Part shown: positions 17,622 to 25,732 of the stretch, piece after piece | How positions within the stretch are numbered: the stretch's first letter is position 1 | How the letters are laid out: the number at the start of each line of letters is the position of its first letter | NCBI GenBank assembly: GCA_017477465.1 | Contig: JAFUVU010000026.1 | Location: 1 to 34,204 of the forward strand | Source: Bacteroidales bacterium | Lineage (GTDB): Bacteria > Bacteroidota > Bacteroidia > Bacteroidales > UBA932 | Direction of reading: 5' to 3' | DNA length: 34,204 nt | Made by a program: the position numbers and the translations under genes | Notes under the pieces: generated by a model | Told to the model about the DNA's origin: nothing | Seen by the model: only the letters and a program-made list of their open reading frames with translations | Databases searched by the model: none

Positions 17622-18341
17622 ATGAGCCTTAAAAAACACATTCCCAACAGCATCACTTCCATGAACCTCCTTGCCGGGGCAGTGGGAGTGGTGCTCACTT
17701 TACAGGGCAGGCTTGATATAGCCTTTCCCCTGATGCTGGCCGCCGCCGTCTTCGATTTTTGCGACGGACTCGCCGCCAGGCTCTTGGGAGCATACTCCCC
17801 CATCGGCAAAGAACTTGATTCTCTGGCCGATATGGTCAGCTTCGGCCTTCTTCCCTCCGTTATGCTGGTTGAAACCATGCAAATCCACGGACGCACCGAC
17901 TGGGTCTCATTCATACCGCTTTTTCTGGCCGTCATGAGCGGCTTGCGTCTTGCGAAATTCAACGTGGACGAGCGCCAAAGCACCGATTTCATAGGTGTAG
18001 CAACGCCTACATCGGCCATGATTTGCGGTTCCCTGACATACTTCATCGCAGCCGAGCCGGGCACCTTCCTGGAACAGTGGGCGGGCAGCGCCTGGTTCCT
18101 CCCCGTCATCGCAATCGTCCTGGGGCTGCTCCTGGTGAGCGAGATTCCGATGTTCGGGATGAAGGTTGCCAAAGGGCATAAATTACTGGACGGCAAGCGG
18201 ATAACCTTCCTTGTACTGTCCGCCATTTCACTGGTTGCAGTCATCGCCTTCCGCATGAACTGGAGCCTTGCCGTACTTGCCGTATTCTTAATCTATCTGC
18301 TCGAAAACTTCCTTCTCTTTGCCTTCTCAAAACGTTCATAA
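17622..18341 (+). CDS. pssA: CDP-diacylglycerol-serine O-phosphatidyltransferase
   Basis: 239-aa integral membrane enzyme that makes phosphatidylserine, precursor of phosphatidylethanolamine. The CDP-alcohol phosphatidyltransferase signature is complete: Asp45, Asp48-Gly49, Ala52-Arg53, Gly62, Asp66, Asp70. The N-terminus IPNSITSMNLLAGAVG and LADMVSFGLLPS are typical of PssA rather than PgsA. Several hydrophobic helices follow. It begins 3 nt after the C1 peptidase stop, and its last 23 nt overlap the lysozyme gene, so the three are likely one transcript. Confidence 0.93.
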   Translation: MSLKKHIPNSITSMNLLAGAVGVVLTLQGRLDIAFPLMLAAAVFDFCDGLAARLLGAYSPIGKELDSLADMVSFGLLPSVMLVETMQIHGRTDWVSFIPLFLAVMSGLRLAKFNVDERQSTDFIGVATPTSAMICGSLTYFIAAEPGTFLEQWAGSAWFLPVIAIVLGLLLVSEIPMFGMKVAKGHKLLDGKRITFLVLSAISLVAVIAFRMNWSLAVLAVFLIYLLENFLLFAFSKRS

Positions 18342-19155
18342 ACCGGCCAAACCGCGAAAAAGGCCGGCCGTCACTGTAAAGAAAACGGCTGTCAAAAAGC
18401 GGAAGAAGTCTGCGAAAAAGGTCAAGCTAAGCCCCTGGTGGATCGTGGGGCTTGTCTGTTTATTGGCCCTTTCCGTGATAGTGCCGCATTGGCTGTATAA
18501 CGCCAACCCGGACACCGGAGCTCCCGTCCCGGAAGGCTATCGGCATTTTATGCTTGACCTGTCCCACCACAACCCGCGCGAAGTTGCCTGGGATTCCCTG
18601 AAGGTAGTAATAGATTCGCACGGCAACACCTCCAAAGACCTGAGTGGCGCCAAGGCCATCTTACCCCTCAGTCATGTAGTAATGAAAGCAACTGAGGGTG
18701 AATCGCTTAAGGACAAGCATTTTGAGAATTGGTGGCAGGAGGCAGGCGAAGCCGGCCTGTCGAGGGGCGCCTACCATTTTTTCCGTTCATCCAAGGACGC
18801 CGGGCTGCAGGCTCAGCAGTACATAGAACGTGTCACCCTGACACACAAGGACTTGCCGCCGATCCTGGACATCGAAACCGTCCACAACGGATGCACAAGG
18901 GAGCAGCTCTGCTCCAAGGCCTTGGTGTGGCTGCGGATGGTGGAGGAGCATTACGGACGCACTCCGATAGTCTATACTTCCGACTCCTTTGTCAAAGACT
19001 GGCTCAATAAATCCATAACGGACTATTATCCCCTTTGGATAGCCCGATACAACAAGCAAGAGCCACGGACGCAGCAGTGGCTCTATTGGCAGTTCACGGA
19101 CGAGGCCGTAGTTTACGGAATCAAAGGTAAGGTGGACCTTTCGGTCCTTCGTTAG
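18319..19155 (+). CDS. Membrane-anchored GH25 lysozyme
   Basis: 278-aa muramidase. A very basic cytosolic N-terminus (about 1-37, Lys/Arg-rich) is followed by one transmembrane segment (about 40-57) and a glycoside hydrolase family 25 domain. Family landmarks: LDLSHHN with Asp80, VVMKATEG, GAYHFF, ILDIE with the catalytic acids Asp184 and Glu186, and YWQFTD near the end. It would cut the MurNAc-GlcNAc bond of peptidoglycan from the outer face of the inner membrane. It overlaps pssA by 23 nt and the convergent hslR gene by 4 nt. Confidence 0.92.
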   Translation: MPSQNVHKPAKPRKRPAVTVKKTAVKKRKKSAKKVKLSPWWIVGLVCLLALSVIVPHWLYNANPDTGAPVPEGYRHFMLDLSHHNPREVAWDSLKVVIDSHGNTSKDLSGAKAILPLSHVVMKATEGESLKDKHFENWWQEAGEAGLSRGAYHFFRSSKDAGLQAQQYIERVTLTHKDLPPILDIETVHNGCTREQLCSKALVWLRMVEEHYGRTPIVYTSDSFVKDWLNKSITDYYPLWIARYNKQEPRTQQWLYWQFTDEAVVYGIKGKVDLSVLR

Positions 19156-19589
19156 AAGTCGTCTTCAGTGAGGCCGAAACGCGCGGCCACATCATCGGGG
19201 ATATCGTTGAAATCGATGGCATCCCAAATCTGCTCTATCTCCCGCCTGTCCTTCTTGGTGGGACGTCCTGCACCGCGGTCCCTTGTCAAGAAGAAAGTCT
19301 CCACGGGAGCGCGCAGCTTGTCAAGTTCCTCCTGAGGCGTGAGGTTCTGCGCAAATTCGGGAACAAGTTTGGCGCCCACACGCTGCTCAATGGGCTGGAG
19401 CACCTTGTAAACAAACGTCACCGAGCCTTTTCGAACATGGAGCACATCGCCGGTCTGCACTGCCTTGGAAGGCTTTGCATTAACCTGGCCGATTTTGACC
19501 TTGCCGCCCTTGCACGCCTCAGCTGCTTCGCCACGGGTTTTAAAGGCCCTGATAGCCCACAGGTATTTGTCTATACGTACTTCTGCCAT
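19152..19589 (-). CDS. hslR: S4-domain heat-shock protein 15-like
   Basis: 145-aa small RNA-binding protein. The S4 domain (about 1-60; RIDKYLWAIRAFKTRGEAAEAC, GKVKIGQVNAKPSKAVQTGD) matches Hsp15/HslR, which rescues stalled 50S subunits carrying nascent chains. The C-terminus GRPTKKDRREIEQ is also typical. Its start overlaps the PMI-like gene stop by one base, so the two are probably translated together. Its stop overlaps the convergent lysozyme gene. Confidence 0.92.
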   Translation of the reverse strand: MAEVRIDKYLWAIRAFKTRGEAAEACKGGKVKIGQVNAKPSKAVQTGDVLHVRKGSVTFVYKVLQPIEQRVGAKLVPEFAQNLTPQEELDKLRAPVETFFLTRDRGAGRPTKKDRREIEQIWDAIDFNDIPDDVAARFGLTEDDF

Positions 19590-20536
19590 TATTCTTCCAC
19601 CGGTGCGGATATGATGTCGTTATCTTCCCTTGGATCCATCCTTACCTCGTGCAAAATGCTGTCCTTTTCTTCCGGGATAAGGAAAAAGTCGTTCACCTCT
19701 GCAGGGACAAGGATGACATCGCCTTTTTTGAGCCGATAGTTTTTCCCGTCGGCCTGCAAAGTGGCCGCGCCTGAGATGCAAATGTAAAGCAGGAAGGTGT
19801 CGTCGATATCCCTATGGCTTTTCAAAGGCTCCTGAAGGCGGATTTGGTTGACGGTGAACTGATCTGTCGAAGCCAGAAGGCCCTCCGTGCGGGCCCTGGG
19901 CCTTTCCCCGCCAGTGAGGCGGATAAGGTCGAAGGCCTCTTCGAGGTGGAGTTCGCGCTCCTCAGAGCCCCAGTCGTGCAGGCGGAACCACAGCTCCGAA
20001 CATTCGGCCACTTCCAGAAGGCTTACATCCTGCGCGGCATGTACAAGGCCGGGGGTTATCAGATAGCTCTCCCCTACTTTTGGCTTTACGCTGTAAAGGA
20101 GCTCTTCCACTTCTGAGGCCATGCAGGCTCTGTAGAACTGCTCTGCGCTGACGTCCTTTTTGAAGCCGAGGTACAGCCTTGCCTTAGGGCCGGCCTCCTC
20201 CACCGTCCAAAGGGCGGTTTTGCCGAATGAGTCGTAGCGCTGTTCGGCGGTTTCATCGTCGGGGTTTATGTGAAGGGAATTGCGTCCTTTGACATTGAGG
20301 CGTTTAACCAGCACCGGAAACTGCGTGCCATACCACTCGAAGGCAGTATCTCCAACCACTCTTTCCAGGTAGGTTTGCATTATGTCGCTAAGGGTGTTGC
20401 CCTTCAGATAGCCCTCGCAGGCCATTGAATCCACGAAGCCAAGATCGGCCAGTTTGTATTCTGCAGTGCCCCAGGGAAACTGCTGCACATCCGTGAGGAA
20501 GCGCATCGGGGTCAGTTTTTTGTTCTCACTTTCCAT
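19589..20536 (-). CDS. Type I phosphomannose isomerase-like protein, altered metal site
   Basis: 315-aa member of the class I mannose-6-phosphate isomerase cupin family. Preserved: FLTDVQQFPWGT at the start, FGKTALW, PGLVHAA, FRLHDWG and a C-terminal cupin half. The zinc ligands are mostly lost: the usual Q-x-H of 'LSVQVHPDD' is His89-x-Asn91 (LHINPDD), and the Glu of 'GKTEMW' is Ala108; only His166 remains. Ordinary mannose-6-phosphate isomerisation is therefore doubtful; it may bind a sugar as regulator or use another chemistry. The ATG at 20536 is chosen because the -7 element TACTTTTG (20551-20544) lies just upstream; an in-frame TTG at 20608 lies upstream of this promoter. hslR follows with a one-base overlap. 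Confidence 0.85.
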   Translation of the reverse strand: MESENKKLTPMRFLTDVQQFPWGTAEYKLADLGFVDSMACEGYLKGNTLSDIMQTYLERVVGDTAFEWYGTQFPVLVKRLNVKGRNSLHINPDDETAEQRYDSFGKTALWTVEEAGPKARLYLGFKKDVSAEQFYRACMASEVEELLYSVKPKVGESYLITPGLVHAAQDVSLLEVAECSELWFRLHDWGSEERELHLEEAFDLIRLTGGERPRARTEGLLASTDQFTVNQIRLQEPLKSHRDIDDTFLLYICISGAATLQADGKNYRLKKGDVILVPAEVNDFFLIPEEKDSILHEVRMDPREDNDIISAPVEE

Positions 20537-20543
20537 ACGGCTG

Positions 20544-20551
20544 CAAAAGTA
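20544..20551 (-). promoter_or_regulatory. -7 element of the PMI-like/hslR operon
   Basis: TACTTTTG on the minus strand fits TAnnTTTG; the -33 element is not clear. The predicted transcript start (about 20538) is only about 2 nt from the ATG at 20536, so the mRNA would be nearly leaderless. Confidence 0.55.
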
Positions 20552-20559
20552 CATAAAAA

Positions 20560-20591
20560 TTCGCAGATGCGCGCGTTTTTTTGTAGCTTTG
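20560..20591 (+). promoter_or_regulatory. Promoter of the amgK-rapZ/murU operon
   Basis: TTCG (20560-20563), 20-nt spacer, TAGCTTTG (20584-20591). Predicted start near 20597, giving a 5-nt leader to the ATG at 20602 or a 17-nt leader to the ATG at 20614. Confidence 0.6.
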
Positions 20592-20601
20592 CATAATGTA
20601 A

Positions 20602-22044
20602 ATGCCAAGCATAATGCAGGAAAACTTGCTCAAAACCCTTTTCGAATCCTACACAGGCCTGATTCCGGAAGATATCGCAGAGCTGCCCTCTTCCGGCAGC
20701 AACAGGCGCTACTTCCGCATAAAAAGCGGGAGCGTCCAACTCATCGGCGTAATAGGGACCAGCCTGCGGGAAAACAAAGTGTTTATCGGCCTGGACCGTC
20801 ATTTCATGGAAAAAGGCATTCCCGTGCCAAAGGTTCTTGCCGTCAGTGAAGACTGCCGGGCGTACCTGCAGGAAGACCTTGGCGAGAAAACCCTCTTCGA
20901 CATGCTTGCCCCTGGGCGCGAAAAAGGCGAATACAGCCCCGATGAAAAAGCCATGCTCCGCCAGGCGATTGCAGAGCTTCCGCGCCTTCAATTCCTTGGA
21001 GCCGAAGGACTTGACTGGGAAAAGGACTGCCTCTACCCTTCCATGGACGGCAGGATGATAGACTTCGACCTCAACTACTTCAAGTATTGCTTCCTTAAGG
21101 CCAGCGGCCTCGAGTTTGACGAGGTTGCCCTGCAGGAAGACTTCGAGCGTCTGAAGTCGTCGCTGCTGAAGATCGAAAGCAAAGCATTCATGCACAGGGA
21201 TTTCCAGGCGCGGAATATTATGATGCACGGCGGTCGGCCCTGGATAATCGATTTCCAAGGCGGCAGAAGAGGGCCGATTTACTACGACGTCGCATCCTTT
21301 GTCTATCAGGCGCGCTCCCGCTTCCCCGAGAGCCTGAAGCAGGAACTCCTCAAAACTTACCTCGGGGCTTTGCAAAGCTATCGGCCCATTGAGGAGAAGC
21401 AGTTTATGGAAGAGCTGCGCCTGTTCGTTCTGTTCCGCACTTTGCAGGTGCTAGGAGCCTACGGATTCCGGGGATACTTCGAGAAAAAGCCTCATTTCAT
21501 CGCCAGCGTCCCGTACGCAATGGAAAATCTGCGCACGCTGCTGGAGACGCCTTTCAGCGAGTATCCCTATCTGAACGGCATCCTGGGTGCGCTTAGCCGG
21601 CTTCCGCAGTTCAATCGGCAGGAATCTCCCAAGGAAGAAGGGCTGCTGGTGCATATCTACAGCTTCTCCTACAAAAAAGGCATTCCGGAGGACAGTTCCC
21701 CCAACGGCGGCGGCTATGTATTTGACTGCCGGAGCATCCATAATCCAGGCCGATACCCTTGCTACCGCCAGCTCAGCGGAATGGACGAAGAGGTAATCCG
21801 CTTCCTTGAAGAAAACGGGGAAGCCGCCGTCTTCCTGGAAAGCGTGTTCAAACTTGCCGATGCACACGTAAAGCGCTATCTGGAAAGGAATTTCACTCAT
21901 TTGCAGATATGTTTCGGCTGCACCGGAGGGCGTCACCGTTCCGTTTACTGCGCAGAGCAGCTGGCCGCCCATCTGGCCAAGAATTTCAATGTCAAAGTGC
22001 TCCTGACACACAGGGAGATGAAAGTGGAAAAAACACTCCGATGA
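20602..22044 (+). CDS. AmgK-like sugar 1-kinase fused to RapZ C-terminal domain
   Basis: 480-aa two-domain protein. Residues 1-335 are an aminoglycoside-phosphotransferase-fold kinase of the AmgK (MurNAc/GlcNAc anomeric kinase) group: SSGSNRRYFRI (30-40), the catalytic loop MHRDFQARN (His198, Asp200, Asn205) and the metal-binding IDFQ (Asp218). Residues 347-475 match the RapZ C-terminal domain, which senses glucosamine-6-phosphate in E. coli: VHIYSFSYKKGIP, YVFDCRSIHNPG, the ligand-binding GCTGGRHRSV (439-448) and AEQLAAHL. The RapZ N-terminal P-loop domain is absent. The stop overlaps the murU ATG (ATGA), making the AmgK-MurU pair of cell-wall recycling. The fused sensor suggests feedback by amino-sugar level (inference). 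An alternative start is the ATG at 20614. Confidence 0.92.
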   Translation: MPSIMQENLLKTLFESYTGLIPEDIAELPSSGSNRRYFRIKSGSVQLIGVIGTSLRENKVFIGLDRHFMEKGIPVPKVLAVSEDCRAYLQEDLGEKTLFDMLAPGREKGEYSPDEKAMLRQAIAELPRLQFLGAEGLDWEKDCLYPSMDGRMIDFDLNYFKYCFLKASGLEFDEVALQEDFERLKSSLLKIESKAFMHRDFQARNIMMHGGRPWIIDFQGGRRGPIYYDVASFVYQARSRFPESLKQELLKTYLGALQSYRPIEEKQFMEELRLFVLFRTLQVLGAYGFRGYFEKKPHFIASVPYAMENLRTLLETPFSEYPYLNGILGALSRLPQFNRQESPKEEGLLVHIYSFSYKKGIPEDSSPNGGGYVFDCRSIHNPGRYPCYRQLSGMDEEVIRFLEENGEAAVFLESVFKLADAHVKRYLERNFTHLQICFGCTGGRHRSVYCAEQLAAHLAKNFNVKVLLTHREMKVEKTLR

Positions 22045-22793
22045 AAGCCCTTGTCTTTGCTGCCGGCCTTGGTACAAGGCTCAGGCCCATAACCGACACC
22101 ATCCCGAAGGCACTGGTCCCGGTTTGCGGACAACCTCTTCTGTATCATGTCCTTAACAAACTCAAAAGGGCAGGATACGATGAGGCGGTGGTCAACGTAC
22201 ACCACTTCCCGCAGCTTATCAAAGATTATCTTGCCGGCAGCGAGTTAGGGATGGATATCGCCGTTTCCGATGAATCGGCCTGCCTTCTCGAGACCGGAGG
22301 AGGCGTACTGAACGCCAAGGACTTGATTCTTCCCTGCGCCGGGCCCTTCCTTGTGCACAACGTGGATATTATCTCCAACCTTGACCTTTGCTGGCTCAGG
22401 GAACAGAGCCGCCCCGATGCCCTTGCGACGCTTGTAGTGAGCGAAAGGCCCACAAGACGCAACCTCCTGTTCGACAGCGAGATGAGGCTGGTCGGCTGGA
22501 CAGACAAAGCCACGGGCGAGGTGCGCTCCCCGTATCCGGACCTAAAGTCCGAAAACTGCCGCAGCTACGCTTTTGCAGGCATCCACAACCTCTCACCCCG
22601 CATTTTCGATGCTTTTGGCCGATACGGCTTCAGCGGCCGGTTTCCGATAATGGATTTTTACCTGAAAGCCTGCCGCGAAGAGCCCATATACGGCGCTCTT
22701 GCCGAAGATTTGAAACTGGTGGATGTAGGAAAATTCGACACTCTTGCGGAGGCGGAAAGACAAGCCGCGGAAATACTTTCTAGCGGAGAATAA
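22041..22793 (+). CDS. murU: MurU-like N-acetylmuramate-1-phosphate uridylyltransferase
   Basis: 250-aa sugar-1-phosphate nucleotidyltransferase. The signature FAAGLGTRLRPIT, then IPKALVPVCGQPLLYH, ETGGGVLNAKD, the metal-binding VHNVDII and the C-terminal VDVGKFDTLAEAE are typical of MurU/GCD1-like enzymes. Paired by an ATGA overlap with the AmgK-like kinase, it should turn MurNAc-1-phosphate into UDP-MurNAc, returning recycled wall sugar directly to peptidoglycan synthesis and bypassing the fosfomycin target MurA. Substrate identity rests on this context. Its last 14 nt overlap the convergent DUF721 gene. Confidence 0.88.
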   Translation: MKALVFAAGLGTRLRPITDTIPKALVPVCGQPLLYHVLNKLKRAGYDEAVVNVHHFPQLIKDYLAGSELGMDIAVSDESACLLETGGGVLNAKDLILPCAGPFLVHNVDIISNLDLCWLREQSRPDALATLVVSERPTRRNLLFDSEMRLVGWTDKATGEVRSPYPDLKSENCRSYAFAGIHNLSPRIFDAFGRYGFSGRFPIMDFYLKACREEPIYGALAEDLKLVDVGKFDTLAEAERQAAEILSSGE

Positions 22794-23109
22794 GCTCTGT
22801 AATAAAGCCGACGCTTTTGTTATCGGCAGTGAAAAGGCTGTCTTGGGAAAGGTATGCGTTCATCTTTTCTATCAGGACTGCCCGCTGGAAATACAGTTGA
22901 TTCCTTATCACTGAGGAGCTTAGGGTGATATACAGCTTTCCTCCGCGGAAAAAGCGCTTCAAGGTATAAGGCCCGGCTCCGGAACATGCATCCCAGGCGG
23001 CGAAAATGCGCTGGGTATTGAGCCCGGCGGCCAGTTTCATGGATTTGATGAACTCCTGGACGACTTTGTCCATGCCCACCGCTTCCTTCCTGTGAATCCT
23101 TACCGCCAT
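22780..23109 (-). CDS. DUF721/DciA-like protein
   Basis: 109-aa protein of the DUF721 family, which includes DciA, the helicase-loading factor of many bacteria. Seen: a helical N-terminus (MDKVVQEFIKSMKLAAGLN), then the core AAWDACSGAGPYTLKRFFRGGKLYITLSSSVIRNQLYF, the common pattern of tRNA/DNA-binding DUF721 proteins. I start it at the ATG at 23109, just after the recF stop; a TTG at 23118 overlapping recF is possible. Location after recF, a replication/repair locus, supports the family call. Confidence 0.82.
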   Translation of the reverse strand: MAVRIHRKEAVGMDKVVQEFIKSMKLAAGLNTQRIFAAWDACSGAGPYTLKRFFRGGKLYITLSSSVIRNQLYFQRAVLIEKMNAYLSQDSLFTADNKSVGFITELILR

Positions 23110-23110
23110 T

Positions 23111-24208
23111 TTACTCAACTTTAGTGAATGAACCCGCCACGGCGTTGAAATAGGCCCTGTCGTCGGTAATCCTGTCCACGATGCCGGACAGGCGTTCCTT
23201 GTCCGTATCGGTAATGAAAATCTGGCCGAAATCCTCCCCTGCCACCATGCCGATGAGGTTGGAGATGCGGCCCAGGTCTAGCTTGTCGAACACGTCGTCG
23301 AGAAGCAGCATCGGGGCAAAACCGTAGGAGCGCTTCATTATCTCGTACTGGGCGAATTTGAGGGCTACGAGGAAGGACTTTTGCTGCCCCTGGGAACCGG
23401 CGCGGCGGATTGGATGGCCGTCCATCGAGAAGATGAAATCGTCCCTTTGTATGCCGGCGGTAGTGTATCGGAGCTGGAAATCACGTTCCCTGTGCTCGCG
23501 GAAAAGATCCGTCAGCGAAGCTTTTTCAAGATCCGACTTATAGCTTACGGAGACTTCCTCCTTACCGCCGGAAATAAGCTGGTAATATCTGGCTACCACC
23601 GGATTAAGGTCATGGGAGAACTGCTTCCTGGATTCATGGATAAGCTTTGCCTGGGCTTCCATCCTGCTGTCTATTACTTCCAGAAGAGACGGATCCGGGG
23701 CAAAATCCTTGAGCATTTTGTTTCGCTGGGCAAGAAGCCTTGAATAAGCCTGTGCGGCGGCAAGATACTCCCCGTCCATCTGTGACAGGACAGCGTTGGA
23801 CAGGCGGCGGCGCTCTTCGCCCGAATCACTTACGAGGGCACTGTCGGCAGGAGACACCATTACTAGCGGCAGTGTGCCGATATGCTGCGACATGCGCGGG
23901 CAGGGCTTGTCGTCCCTTGTCAGCTTTTTGCCTTCTTCCGACACTTTTATGCTGAAACGGGATTCGAGGCCGTTTTCCATGGCGTATGTGCCGCCGATGG
24001 TAAAGCCTGCCGTCCCATATCGGAAATTGGTGCTGTCGGGAGCAGGGAAAGCGCTTTTTGTCATTGAAAGATAGTAGATGGCGTCCATCAGATTGGTCTT
24101 TCCTTCCCCGTTGTTTCCGCTTATGCAGTTGACATTGGGGCTGAAGCTGAGTTCCTGAAAAACTATGTTTCTGAAGTCCTGTACTACTATTTTTTTGAGA
24201 GACGGCAT
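23111..24208 (-). CDS. recF: RecF DNA repair ATPase
   Basis: 365-aa SMC-like ABC ATPase that loads RecA at gaps with RecO/RecR. The N-terminus LKKIVVQDFRNI is typical. Walker A is GNNGEGKTN (31-39), the signature region is AGSQGQQKSFLVALK, and Walker B is MLLLDDVFDKLD. The length is normal for RecF. The true start is the ATG at 24208, because the open frame upstream (TTG at 24265) crosses a -7 promoter element. The DUF721 gene follows directly. Confidence 0.95.
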   Translation of the reverse strand: MPSLKKIVVQDFRNIVFQELSFSPNVNCISGNNGEGKTNLMDAIYYLSMTKSAFPAPDSTNFRYGTAGFTIGGTYAMENGLESRFSIKVSEEGKKLTRDDKPCPRMSQHIGTLPLVMVSPADSALVSDSGEERRRLSNAVLSQMDGEYLAAAQAYSRLLAQRNKMLKDFAPDPSLLEVIDSRMEAQAKLIHESRKQFSHDLNPVVARYYQLISGGKEEVSVSYKSDLEKASLTDLFREHRERDFQLRYTTAGIQRDDFIFSMDGHPIRRAGSQGQQKSFLVALKFAQYEIMKRSYGFAPMLLLDDVFDKLDLGRISNLIGMVAGEDFGQIFITDTDKERLSGIVDRITDDRAYFNAVAGSFTKVE

Positions 24209-24224
24209 GATGCAGTTCGTTAGG

Positions 24225-24256
24225 ATTGCAAATATAAGATAATTTTCGTAAATTTG
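24225..24256 (+). promoter_or_regulatory. Promoter of the TPR protein/yebC genes
   Basis: ATTG (24225-24228), 20-nt spacer, TAAATTTG (24249-24256). Predicted start near 24262, about 28 nt before the ATG at 24291. Confidence 0.7.
24229..24236 (-). promoter_or_regulatory. -7 element of recF
   Basis: TATATTTG on the minus strand, predicted start about 24223, 15 nt before the recF ATG. It lies in the spacer of the divergent promoter at 24225-24256. Confidence 0.55.
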
Positions 24257-24290
24257 CAGGCTCAAAAGCTAATTAGAAACAAAAACAAAT

Positions 24291-24971
24291 ATGGCAAAAA
24301 TCACCAAAACAGAAGAGGAAAGCCGTCAGCAAAACGTAGCTGAGGCAGTCTCAAAAACCGAAGAATTCTTCAAAAAGAACGGTAATCTCATTTACGGCTG
24401 CGTCATCGCAGTTCTTGTTATCGCCCTTGGCATCCTGGCCTACAACCGCTTCATCCTGCAGCCCAAGAAGGCCCAGGCAACAGACCAGATGGTCCGTGCA
24501 GAACGTTGGTTCGACGCTGGCGAATACGAACTTGCCCTTAACGGCGACGACAACGACCCCGGCTTTGAAGAACTCATCAACCAGTACGGTTCCAAAGCAG
24601 GCGAGGCCGTGTATCTGTACGCAGGCATCGCAAAACTGCAGACCGGCGCCTTCGAAGATGCAATCGCCTACCTCAAAAAATACAACGGCAGCGATCCCAT
24701 CCTCAAAGCCCGTGCAGAAGCATGCATCGGCGACGCTTACGTAGAACTTCAGGACTATGCAAACGCCATCAGCTGGTTCACAAAAGCCGCCAAGACAACG
24801 GATAACGCATACGCAGCAGCTTATCTTCTGAAAGCCGGCATCGCTGCAGAAGCCAGCGGCGACAACGCCAAGGCTCTCTCCTTCTACAAGGAAATCAAAG
24901 ACCAGTGGGGCAACGCTCCCGAGGCCATGGAAATTGACAAGTACATCTCCCGCATCGAAAACGCAGAGTAA
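24291..24971 (+). CDS. Membrane-anchored tetratricopeptide repeat protein
   Basis: 226 aa. A charged N-terminus precedes one transmembrane helix (about 33-52, LIYGCVIAVLVIALGILAYN). The rest is periplasmic TPR-like helical repeats (FEDAIAYLKKYNGSDPILKARAEACIGDAYVELQDYANAISWF, abbreviated here as two repeats about 120-190). This layout resembles YfgM/TPR_21 proteins associated with the Sec translocon and outer-membrane assembly, but the exact role is not known. yebC starts 2 nt after its stop. Confidence 0.85.
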   Translation: MAKITKTEEESRQQNVAEAVSKTEEFFKKNGNLIYGCVIAVLVIALGILAYNRFILQPKKAQATDQMVRAERWFDAGEYELALNGDDNDPGFEELINQYGSKAGEAVYLYAGIAKLQTGAFEDAIAYLKKYNGSDPILKARAEACIGDAYVELQDYANAISWFTKAAKTTDNAYAAAYLLKAGIAAEASGDNAKALSFYKEIKDQWGNAPEAMEIDKYISRIENAE

Positions 24972-24973
24972 GT

Positions 24974-25732
24974 ATGGGTCGCGCATTTGAATTCCGTAAA
25001 GAGCGCAAACTGAAGCGCTGGGGCCACATGGCCAAAACCTTCACCAAACTTGGTAAGGAAATCACCATCGCCGTCAAGCAAGGCGGAGCAGAAGTAACCG
25101 GCAACCCTCGTCTTCGTGCCCTCATAGCAGAGGCCAAGTCAGAGCAGATGCCCAAGGAAAACATCGAGCGAGCAATCAAGAAAGCCACCGAAGCCAAAAC
25201 CGGAGACTTCAAAGAAATCATCTACGAAGGTTTCGGCCCCTTCGGCATCGCTTATCTGGTAGAAGCAGCAACTGACAACAACACCCGCACCGTGGCCAAT
25301 GTCCGCAGCTATTTCACCAAATGCGGCGGCTCCCTGCAAACCAGCGGCTCAGTTGCATTCATGTTCGACCATAAATGCGTCTTCCGCATCAAGGAAGATC
25401 CTGCAAAACCCATCGACACGGACGAGCTGGAACTCGACCTCATCGACTTCGGCGCTGAAGAAGTCTTCAAGCAGGAAGTAGAAGACGAAGATGAAAACGT
25501 GACAGTGGAAATCTCAATCTACGGAGACTACACCGCCTACGGCCAAATCCAGAAGTACATCGAAGAAAAAGGCTACGAACTCATCTCCGGCGGTTTCGAG
25601 CAAATCCCCAACGTGGATCTCAAGGAAGTCACTCCCGAGCAAAGAGCCACTCTTGACAAGCTCACCGGCCTTCTGGAAGACGACGAAGACGTCACCAACG
25701 TCTATACCACCCTGGCACCGGAAACAGAATAA
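24974..25732 (+). CDS. yebC: YebC/TACO1-family protein
   Basis: 252-aa YebC/PmpR homologue. Seen: the N-terminal KRWGHMAKTFTKLGKEI and the conserved GNPRLRALIAEAKSEQMPKENIERAI, then IIYEGFGPFGIAYLVEAATDN and the acidic C-terminal part ending in TTLAPETE. Members are reported as transcription regulators and, more recently, as translation factors that relieve stalling at proline runs, like TACO1. Two nt separate it from the TPR gene, and a terminator follows. Confidence 0.94.
   Translation: MGRAFEFRKERKLKRWGHMAKTFTKLGKEITIAVKQGGAEVTGNPRLRALIAEAKSEQMPKENIERAIKKATEAKTGDFKEIIYEGFGPFGIAYLVEAATDNNTRTVANVRSYFTKCGGSLQTSGSVAFMFDHKCVFRIKEDPAKPIDTDELELDLIDFGAEEVFKQEVEDEDENVTVEISIYGDYTAYGQIQKYIEEKGYELISGGFEQIPNVDLKEVTPEQRATLDKLTGLLEDDEDVTNVYTTLAPETE

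Follow-up and report, generated by a model that had tools for sequence, protein, structure and literature searches.

This study concerns a fusion gene in a 34,204-nucleotide stretch of DNA from a Bacteroidales bacterium of lineage UBA932 (contig JAFUVU010000026.1 of assembly GCA_017477465.1), the whole of which we call the window. The gene joins an AmgK-like kinase to the C-terminal domain of RapZ and overlaps the start of a murU-like gene. On balance, we read its product as a sugar 1-kinase for the salvage of N-acetylmuramic acid (MurNAc) with a dimerising, phosphosugar-binding RapZ module, which would work without RNA and is likelier to hold a MurNAc phosphate than glucosamine-6-phosphate (GlcN6P). 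In the proposed mechanism, the AmgK-type kinase would convert recycled MurNAc to MurNAc-1-phosphate, and the adjacent MurU-like enzyme would convert that to UDP-MurNAc, by-passing MurA and MurB. The RapZ domain appears to have accompanied the kinase through evolution, whether fused to it, encoded next to it or unlinked. Its phosphate loop has been retained and the opposite side of its pocket rebuilt (His190 to Gly, Lys or Arg beside it, and a GNGGG-type insertion). It may bind a wall-sugar phosphate, more probably the lactyl-bearing MurNAc phosphate than GlcN6P. We infer that the module acts on the kinase directly, as a regulator or an aid, and that no RNA is involved; the direction of any regulation belongs to the same inference. 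The RapZ tail present in many Bacteroidota is probably a metabolite-handling part of a recycling enzyme and not an RNA regulator. The readings weighed below overlap, and their probabilities need not add to one.

The gene, its parts and its partner are as follows.

20602..22044, + strand: AmgK-like kinase and RapZ C-terminal domain in one gene, 480 amino acids
20674..21387, + strand: APH-fold kinase domain, residues 25-262 (Pfam)
21193..21201, + strand: kinase catalytic loop HRD, residues 198-200
21247..21258, + strand: IDFQ, residues 216-219, with D217 and Q219 invariant in alignments A1 and A2
21562..21636, + strand: linker, residues 321-345, with predicted local distance difference test scores (pLDDT) below 50 at 340-344
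21646..22023, + strand: RapZ C-terminal domain, residues 349-474
21697..21714, + strand: family-specific insertion region, residues 366-371, here SPNGGG
21742..21753, + strand: NPGR, residues 381-384; Gly383 corresponds to E. coli His190 and Arg384 to Trp191
21916..21942, + strand: phosphate loop GCTGGRHRS, residues 439-447, corresponding to E. coli G246-S254
22041..22044, + strand: ATGA, where the stop of the fusion overlaps the start of murU (-4 bp)
22041..22793, + strand: murU-like nucleotidyltransferase, 250 amino acids (PF00483, NCBIfam MurU)

The first-pass annotation, made from the sequence of the window, had described an AmgK-like kinase running into a complete RapZ C-terminal domain, without the RapZ P-loop half and coupled to murU through ATGA, and each of these points is borne out. 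Pfam finds both domains in the one gene, the RapZ C-terminal domain being complete (E 1.6e-34), and does not find the P-loop N-terminal half (PF03668) in the fusion protein. That half was matched in none of the 37 genomes searched, including the window's own, with a control matched in 6 of 14. The RapZ C domain occurs once in the source genome (82.5% complete), namely in the fusion. Against NCBIfam, the fusion matches AmgK and the C half only of RapZ, and its neighbour matches MurU, all under the equivalog cut-offs. The kinase scores 61.6 bits with one AmgK model (NF045759, cut-off 550) and 37.7 with another (NF045698, cut-off 500); it is related to AmgK, yet is no AmgK by the curated models. 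It has the APH fold with the RD and DxQ motifs. In alignments A1 and A2, R199 and D200 are invariant and H198 is frequently Tyr or Phe; we take the catalytic meaning of the HRD loop and the metal-binding meaning of IDFQ from the APH family. For the murU-like protein, MurU is the top model among the 25 listed (E 1.4e-33, 116.7 bits, under the cut-off of 250). An AlphaFold2 model of the fusion has a mean pLDDT of 94.5, and its kinase part matches 3csv and its C-terminal domain E. coli RapZ. Conservation is higher in the RapZ part than in the kinase (mean majority fraction 0.70 versus 0.60); of the three parts compared, the linker has the lowest.

The first-pass annotation had also proposed a search for the domain pair across the phylum, and this yields a consistent association of the RapZ domain with the kinase. 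We examined 296 genomes of the phylum and found a RapZ C domain in 36: in 27 it is fused to the kinase, in seven it is a gene of its own in the adjacent order kinase-rapZC-murU, and in two it is unlinked, lying about 550 kb off or on a separate contig, with the kinase still present. The RapZ P-loop half is absent from all 36. The kinase is found in all 36 at E 1.2e-42 or better, whereas only one of the 260 genomes lacking the domain (G009) has a kinase of comparable strength (Fisher P 1.4e-45, uncorrected for kinship). Weaker kinase relatives (E 6e-28 or worse) occur in 63 of those 260, all of family f18. In a kinase tree built quickly from 42 rows, in which G180, G017 and G271 form long branches and false joins are possible, the split genes fall within the fused group and require two changes. 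We also collected named loci as the best 80 of 585 confirmed stretches. All 80 are fused, which is no rate, because the loci were selected by likeness to the fused query; they come from Bacteroides, Parabacteroides, Phocaeicola, Prevotella, Tannerella and others, with single metagenome-assembled genomes (MAGs) labelled Ignavibacteriales, Chitinophagales, Calditrichia and Elusimicrobia. In one MAG contig (L122:5010-7292), a single 760-residue frame comprises the kinase, the RapZ C domain and a MurU-like nucleotidyltransferase.

A role in MurNAc salvage, as the earlier annotation had supposed, is backed by this co-occurrence, by gene order, by the triple fusion and by an association with the loss of MurA and MurB. 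Every one of the 36 genomes with the RapZ C domain has a MurU-like match (37 of 37 with G009) and MurC above its cut-off (again 37 of 37 with G009). In 28 of the 36 loci murU follows the module on the same strand, and in 27 the distance is no more than 300 bp. Profile searches place MurA above the cut-off in 288 of the 296 genomes, the eight below it being worked out from E-values. Three of the eight (G104, G237 and G272), all without the RapZ domain, were scored as MurA-positive on account of strong matches (E 1.8e-72 to 3.9e-115). The five without a convincing MurA (G115, G132, G180, G216 and G267) all carry the RapZ domain, giving 5 of 36 genomes with the module versus 0 of 260 without it (Fisher P 2.1e-5, uncorrected for kinship), or 5 of 36 versus 3 of 260 (P 8.7e-4) if the three are counted as MurA-less. 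The five belong to four families and represent four changes on the tree; the weak MurA matches in G115, G132 and G267 are presumably AroA relatives. A MurB profile search of 40 genomes gave no match in four of the five, that is, all but G180, and in those same four murU adjoins the fusion. MurC uses UDP-MurNAc, and because MurC is kept, the kinase and MurU form the sole visible route to UDP-MurNAc in these genomes. These carriers, with murU adjoining, support MurNAc salvage.

The five genomes without a convincing MurA, with MurC present, are also candidates for MurNAc auxotrophy or scavenging. In the window's genome, MurA lies above the cut-off and the matches to MurB are partial; the route there would therefore be salvage alongside de novo supply. 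Its MurA gene adjoins a 515-residue frame (G000:C16:7591-9813) that matches MurB in two stretches, neither of which reaches the cut-off, and this suggests a divergent or rearranged MurB. A search for MurQ found it above the cut-off in 14 of 40 genomes, with no match in the window's genome, and was not used for any conclusion.

What the RapZ domain binds was addressed with an alignment of 110 rows, made of 74 of the 80 named loci, 26 fused and nine stand-alone proteins from the 296 genomes, and the window; six named loci were omitted because their frames fall outside 440-560 residues or extend past the locus. One duplicate (L138 and G216) leaves 109 distinct rows, 100 fused and nine stand-alone. 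Alignments A2 and A3 hold 53 of the 74 named loci plus the window. Ten canonical RapZ proteins (nine of 49 plasmid records, and E. coli) served as the comparison.

Excerpted accounts of E. coli RapZ place H190, T248, G249, H252 and R253 in the pocket, with C247 nearby (PMC5737377, PMC9841335, PMC7073468). H190A abolishes activity (PMC9841335), as do R253A and C247S or C247A, and the tested variants lose co-elution of small RNAs too (PMC5737377, PMC9841335, PMC7073468). The equivalents of C247, T248, G249, G250, H252, R253 and S254 are invariant in the 109 distinct rows. Position 190, in contrast, is Gly in all 109, compared with His in seven and Tyr in three of the canonical proteins, and the next residue, 191, is basic (Arg or Lys) in 108. 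A GNGGG-type insertion, absent from the ten canonical proteins, precedes the VFDCR strand; it reads S/T-GNGGG in 87 of the 109 rows, and the eight commonest patterns (95 rows) all include GGG. The loss of pocket residues had been named beforehand as a result that would speak against a GlcN6P sensor; His190 is indeed lost, and the other named pocket residues are kept. The residues point to a metabolite module with a sugar-phosphate ligand, to which GlcN6P cannot safely be assigned. Gly190 would make room, and Lys or Arg at 191 could pair with the lactyl carboxylate, which would favour a MurNAc phosphate as the ligand.

The first-pass annotation had instead proposed that the RapZ domain senses GlcN6P and, by allostery, matches MurNAc salvage to the pool of amino sugars made de novo. 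The fold is as in RapZ, the phosphate loop is invariant, and the E. coli C-terminal domain alone is reported to bind GlcN6P by surface plasmon resonance with a dissociation constant of 10 nM (PMC7073468, in excerpt). We nevertheless consider this proposal rather unlikely, though it is the leading alternative: the uniform Gly at position 190, the charge next to it and the insertion are all new relative to canonical RapZ, and even in E. coli the site is termed "yet uncharacterised" in the excerpt of PMC9841335.

The same loop also admits an enzymatic interpretation. It has the C-x5-R-S/T form by which Cys-based phosphatases are defined, and the model places it, as in those enzymes, between a strand and a helix. 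Dephosphorylation of MurNAc-6-phosphate is the task of MupP in pseudomonads. The domain might accordingly be a thiol phosphatase acting on MurNAc-6-phosphate and passing free MurNAc to the fused 1-kinase, although we regard this as improbable. It is just as improbable, in our estimate, that the whole protein is a bifunctional cysteine phosphatase-kinase, diverting MurNAc-6-phosphate (the first choice among wall-sugar phosphates) to MurNAc-1-phosphate; were it so, RapZ itself would descend from, or still be, a sugar-phosphate enzyme. The motif is given as HCX5R in the excerpt of PMC6355987, a paper on soil phosphatases that was set aside because the excerpt does not deal with YvcJ or RapZ. Sequence searches found no homology to phosphatases. 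Separately, a replacement of MupP was sought through co-occurrence with AnmK and was rejected, AnmK being present in 26 of 36 genomes with the RapZ domain and 182 of 260 without (no association).

A third possibility is that the domain is a mere structural dimeriser taken from RapZ, its loop retained for folding. The equivalents of F181 and D182, both of which E. coli C-terminal domains need to form dimers (PMC5737377, in excerpt), are invariant in all 110 rows, and kinase-murU pairs occur without the RapZ domain. Dimerisation would be part of our preferred reading as well. As a complete account, however, we judge it a poor candidate: the entire ligand loop is among the invariant positions, and the domain is also maintained as a gene of its own, unlinked in two genomes, which is unexpected of a mere linker.

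Least probable of all, and in our view quite unlikely, is that the fusion resembles RapZ in function, as a regulator that binds RNA and responds to a metabolite, with a kinase attached. Seven basic RNA-contact residues are named for E. coli RapZ (PMC9841335, in excerpt). The fold is shared and charge is kept at K170 and R184 and mostly at R196 (K/R); it is changed at 194, 211, 238 and 251. Of the altered parts, canonical RapZ proteins also vary at K194, R211, K251 and K270 and in the tail, whereas position 238 is K or R in all ten canonical proteins and F, W or Y in all 109 distinct rows. The tail has a mean net charge of +0.8 (range -4 to +7), compared with +7 in E. coli, the sole canonical tail compared. 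The RapZ N-terminal half, as noted, was missing from every genome searched, and an Rfam covariance scan of window positions 18000-25000 gave no match at E up to 1. An RNA function thus looks unlikely, with mixed residue evidence; the independence from RNA claimed at the outset is favoured by the loss of R238 and disfavoured by the retention of K170 and R184.

Several points weigh against a MurNAc-salvage kinase with an RNA-free MurNAc phosphate module. The kinase's sugar is read from context, because the AmgK cut-offs are missed widely. The kinase of G009, like that of each of five f18 loci read, has a murU-like partner and no RapZ domain, and because such pairs occur, the domain is unnecessary for the chemistry. 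In eight of the 36 genomes murU lies away from the module, and the MurU-like match is weak in G271 (E 4.5e-30) and G180 (E 6.4e-23), where it may represent another sugar nucleotidyltransferase. The absence of MurA is a profile-search result whose weight is lessened by kinship and genome gaps. MurNAc phosphate as the ligand comes from residue reasoning alone. Finally, the changes at 194, 211, 251, 270 and the tail say little because canonical RapZ varies there too, and K170, R184 and the mostly basic R196 leave room for nucleic-acid binding.

Two neighbouring genes may be mentioned. A class I mannose-6-phosphate isomerase-like gene (window 19589-20524, - strand) is divergent from the fusion across a short gap, and no relative of it was matched adjoining the fusion in the other loci scanned. 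Further upstream, separated from the fusion by two genes, lies a putative GH25-type lysozyme-like gene with a basic N-terminus (window 18319-19155, + strand).

If our reading holds, these proteins would show the metabolite domain of RapZ at work outside an RNA context, and the kinase-murU pairs lacking the domain would serve as a natural control. They would make testable the ligand or action of the RapZ pocket and the reason for the Cys247 requirement in E. coli, and where MurA is not recognisable, Bacteroidota seem to rely on this enzyme for their cell wall. A public protein name is also corrected. The Parabacteroides distasonis fusion WP_005858754.1 (L147:2981-4411) is named "RNase adapter RapZ" by NCBI, which misdescribes a kinase-RapZ fusion and is misleading because such proteins lack the P-loop half. 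Among the open-access papers searched, we found no description of the fusion and none that names AmgK and RapZ together.

The fusion is an apparently new variant of AmgK-MurU salvage, and it is not RapZ. AmgK and MurU salvage MurNAc in Pseudomonas and Caulobacter, and the likeness to that pathway lies in an APH-fold sugar kinase gene immediately before a MurU-type uridylyltransferase gene; the difference is that the kinase here falls far under the AmgK model cut-offs and has a RapZ C-terminal domain, either joined to it or encoded separately. From RapZ and YvcJ, the fusion differs in lacking the P-loop NTPase half, in the loss of R238, in being joined to a kinase, and in having a pocket Gly for His or Tyr together with the GNGGG-type insertion. 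A further parallel is Tannerella forsythia, which is without MurA and MurB and whose UDP-MurNAc is attributed to AmgK and MurU; the excerpted accounts of its MurNAc auxotrophy do not mention a RapZ domain (PMC7670621, PMC5790795). A Tannerella MAG (L087) has the fusion with murU, and the likeness there is of these genes only.
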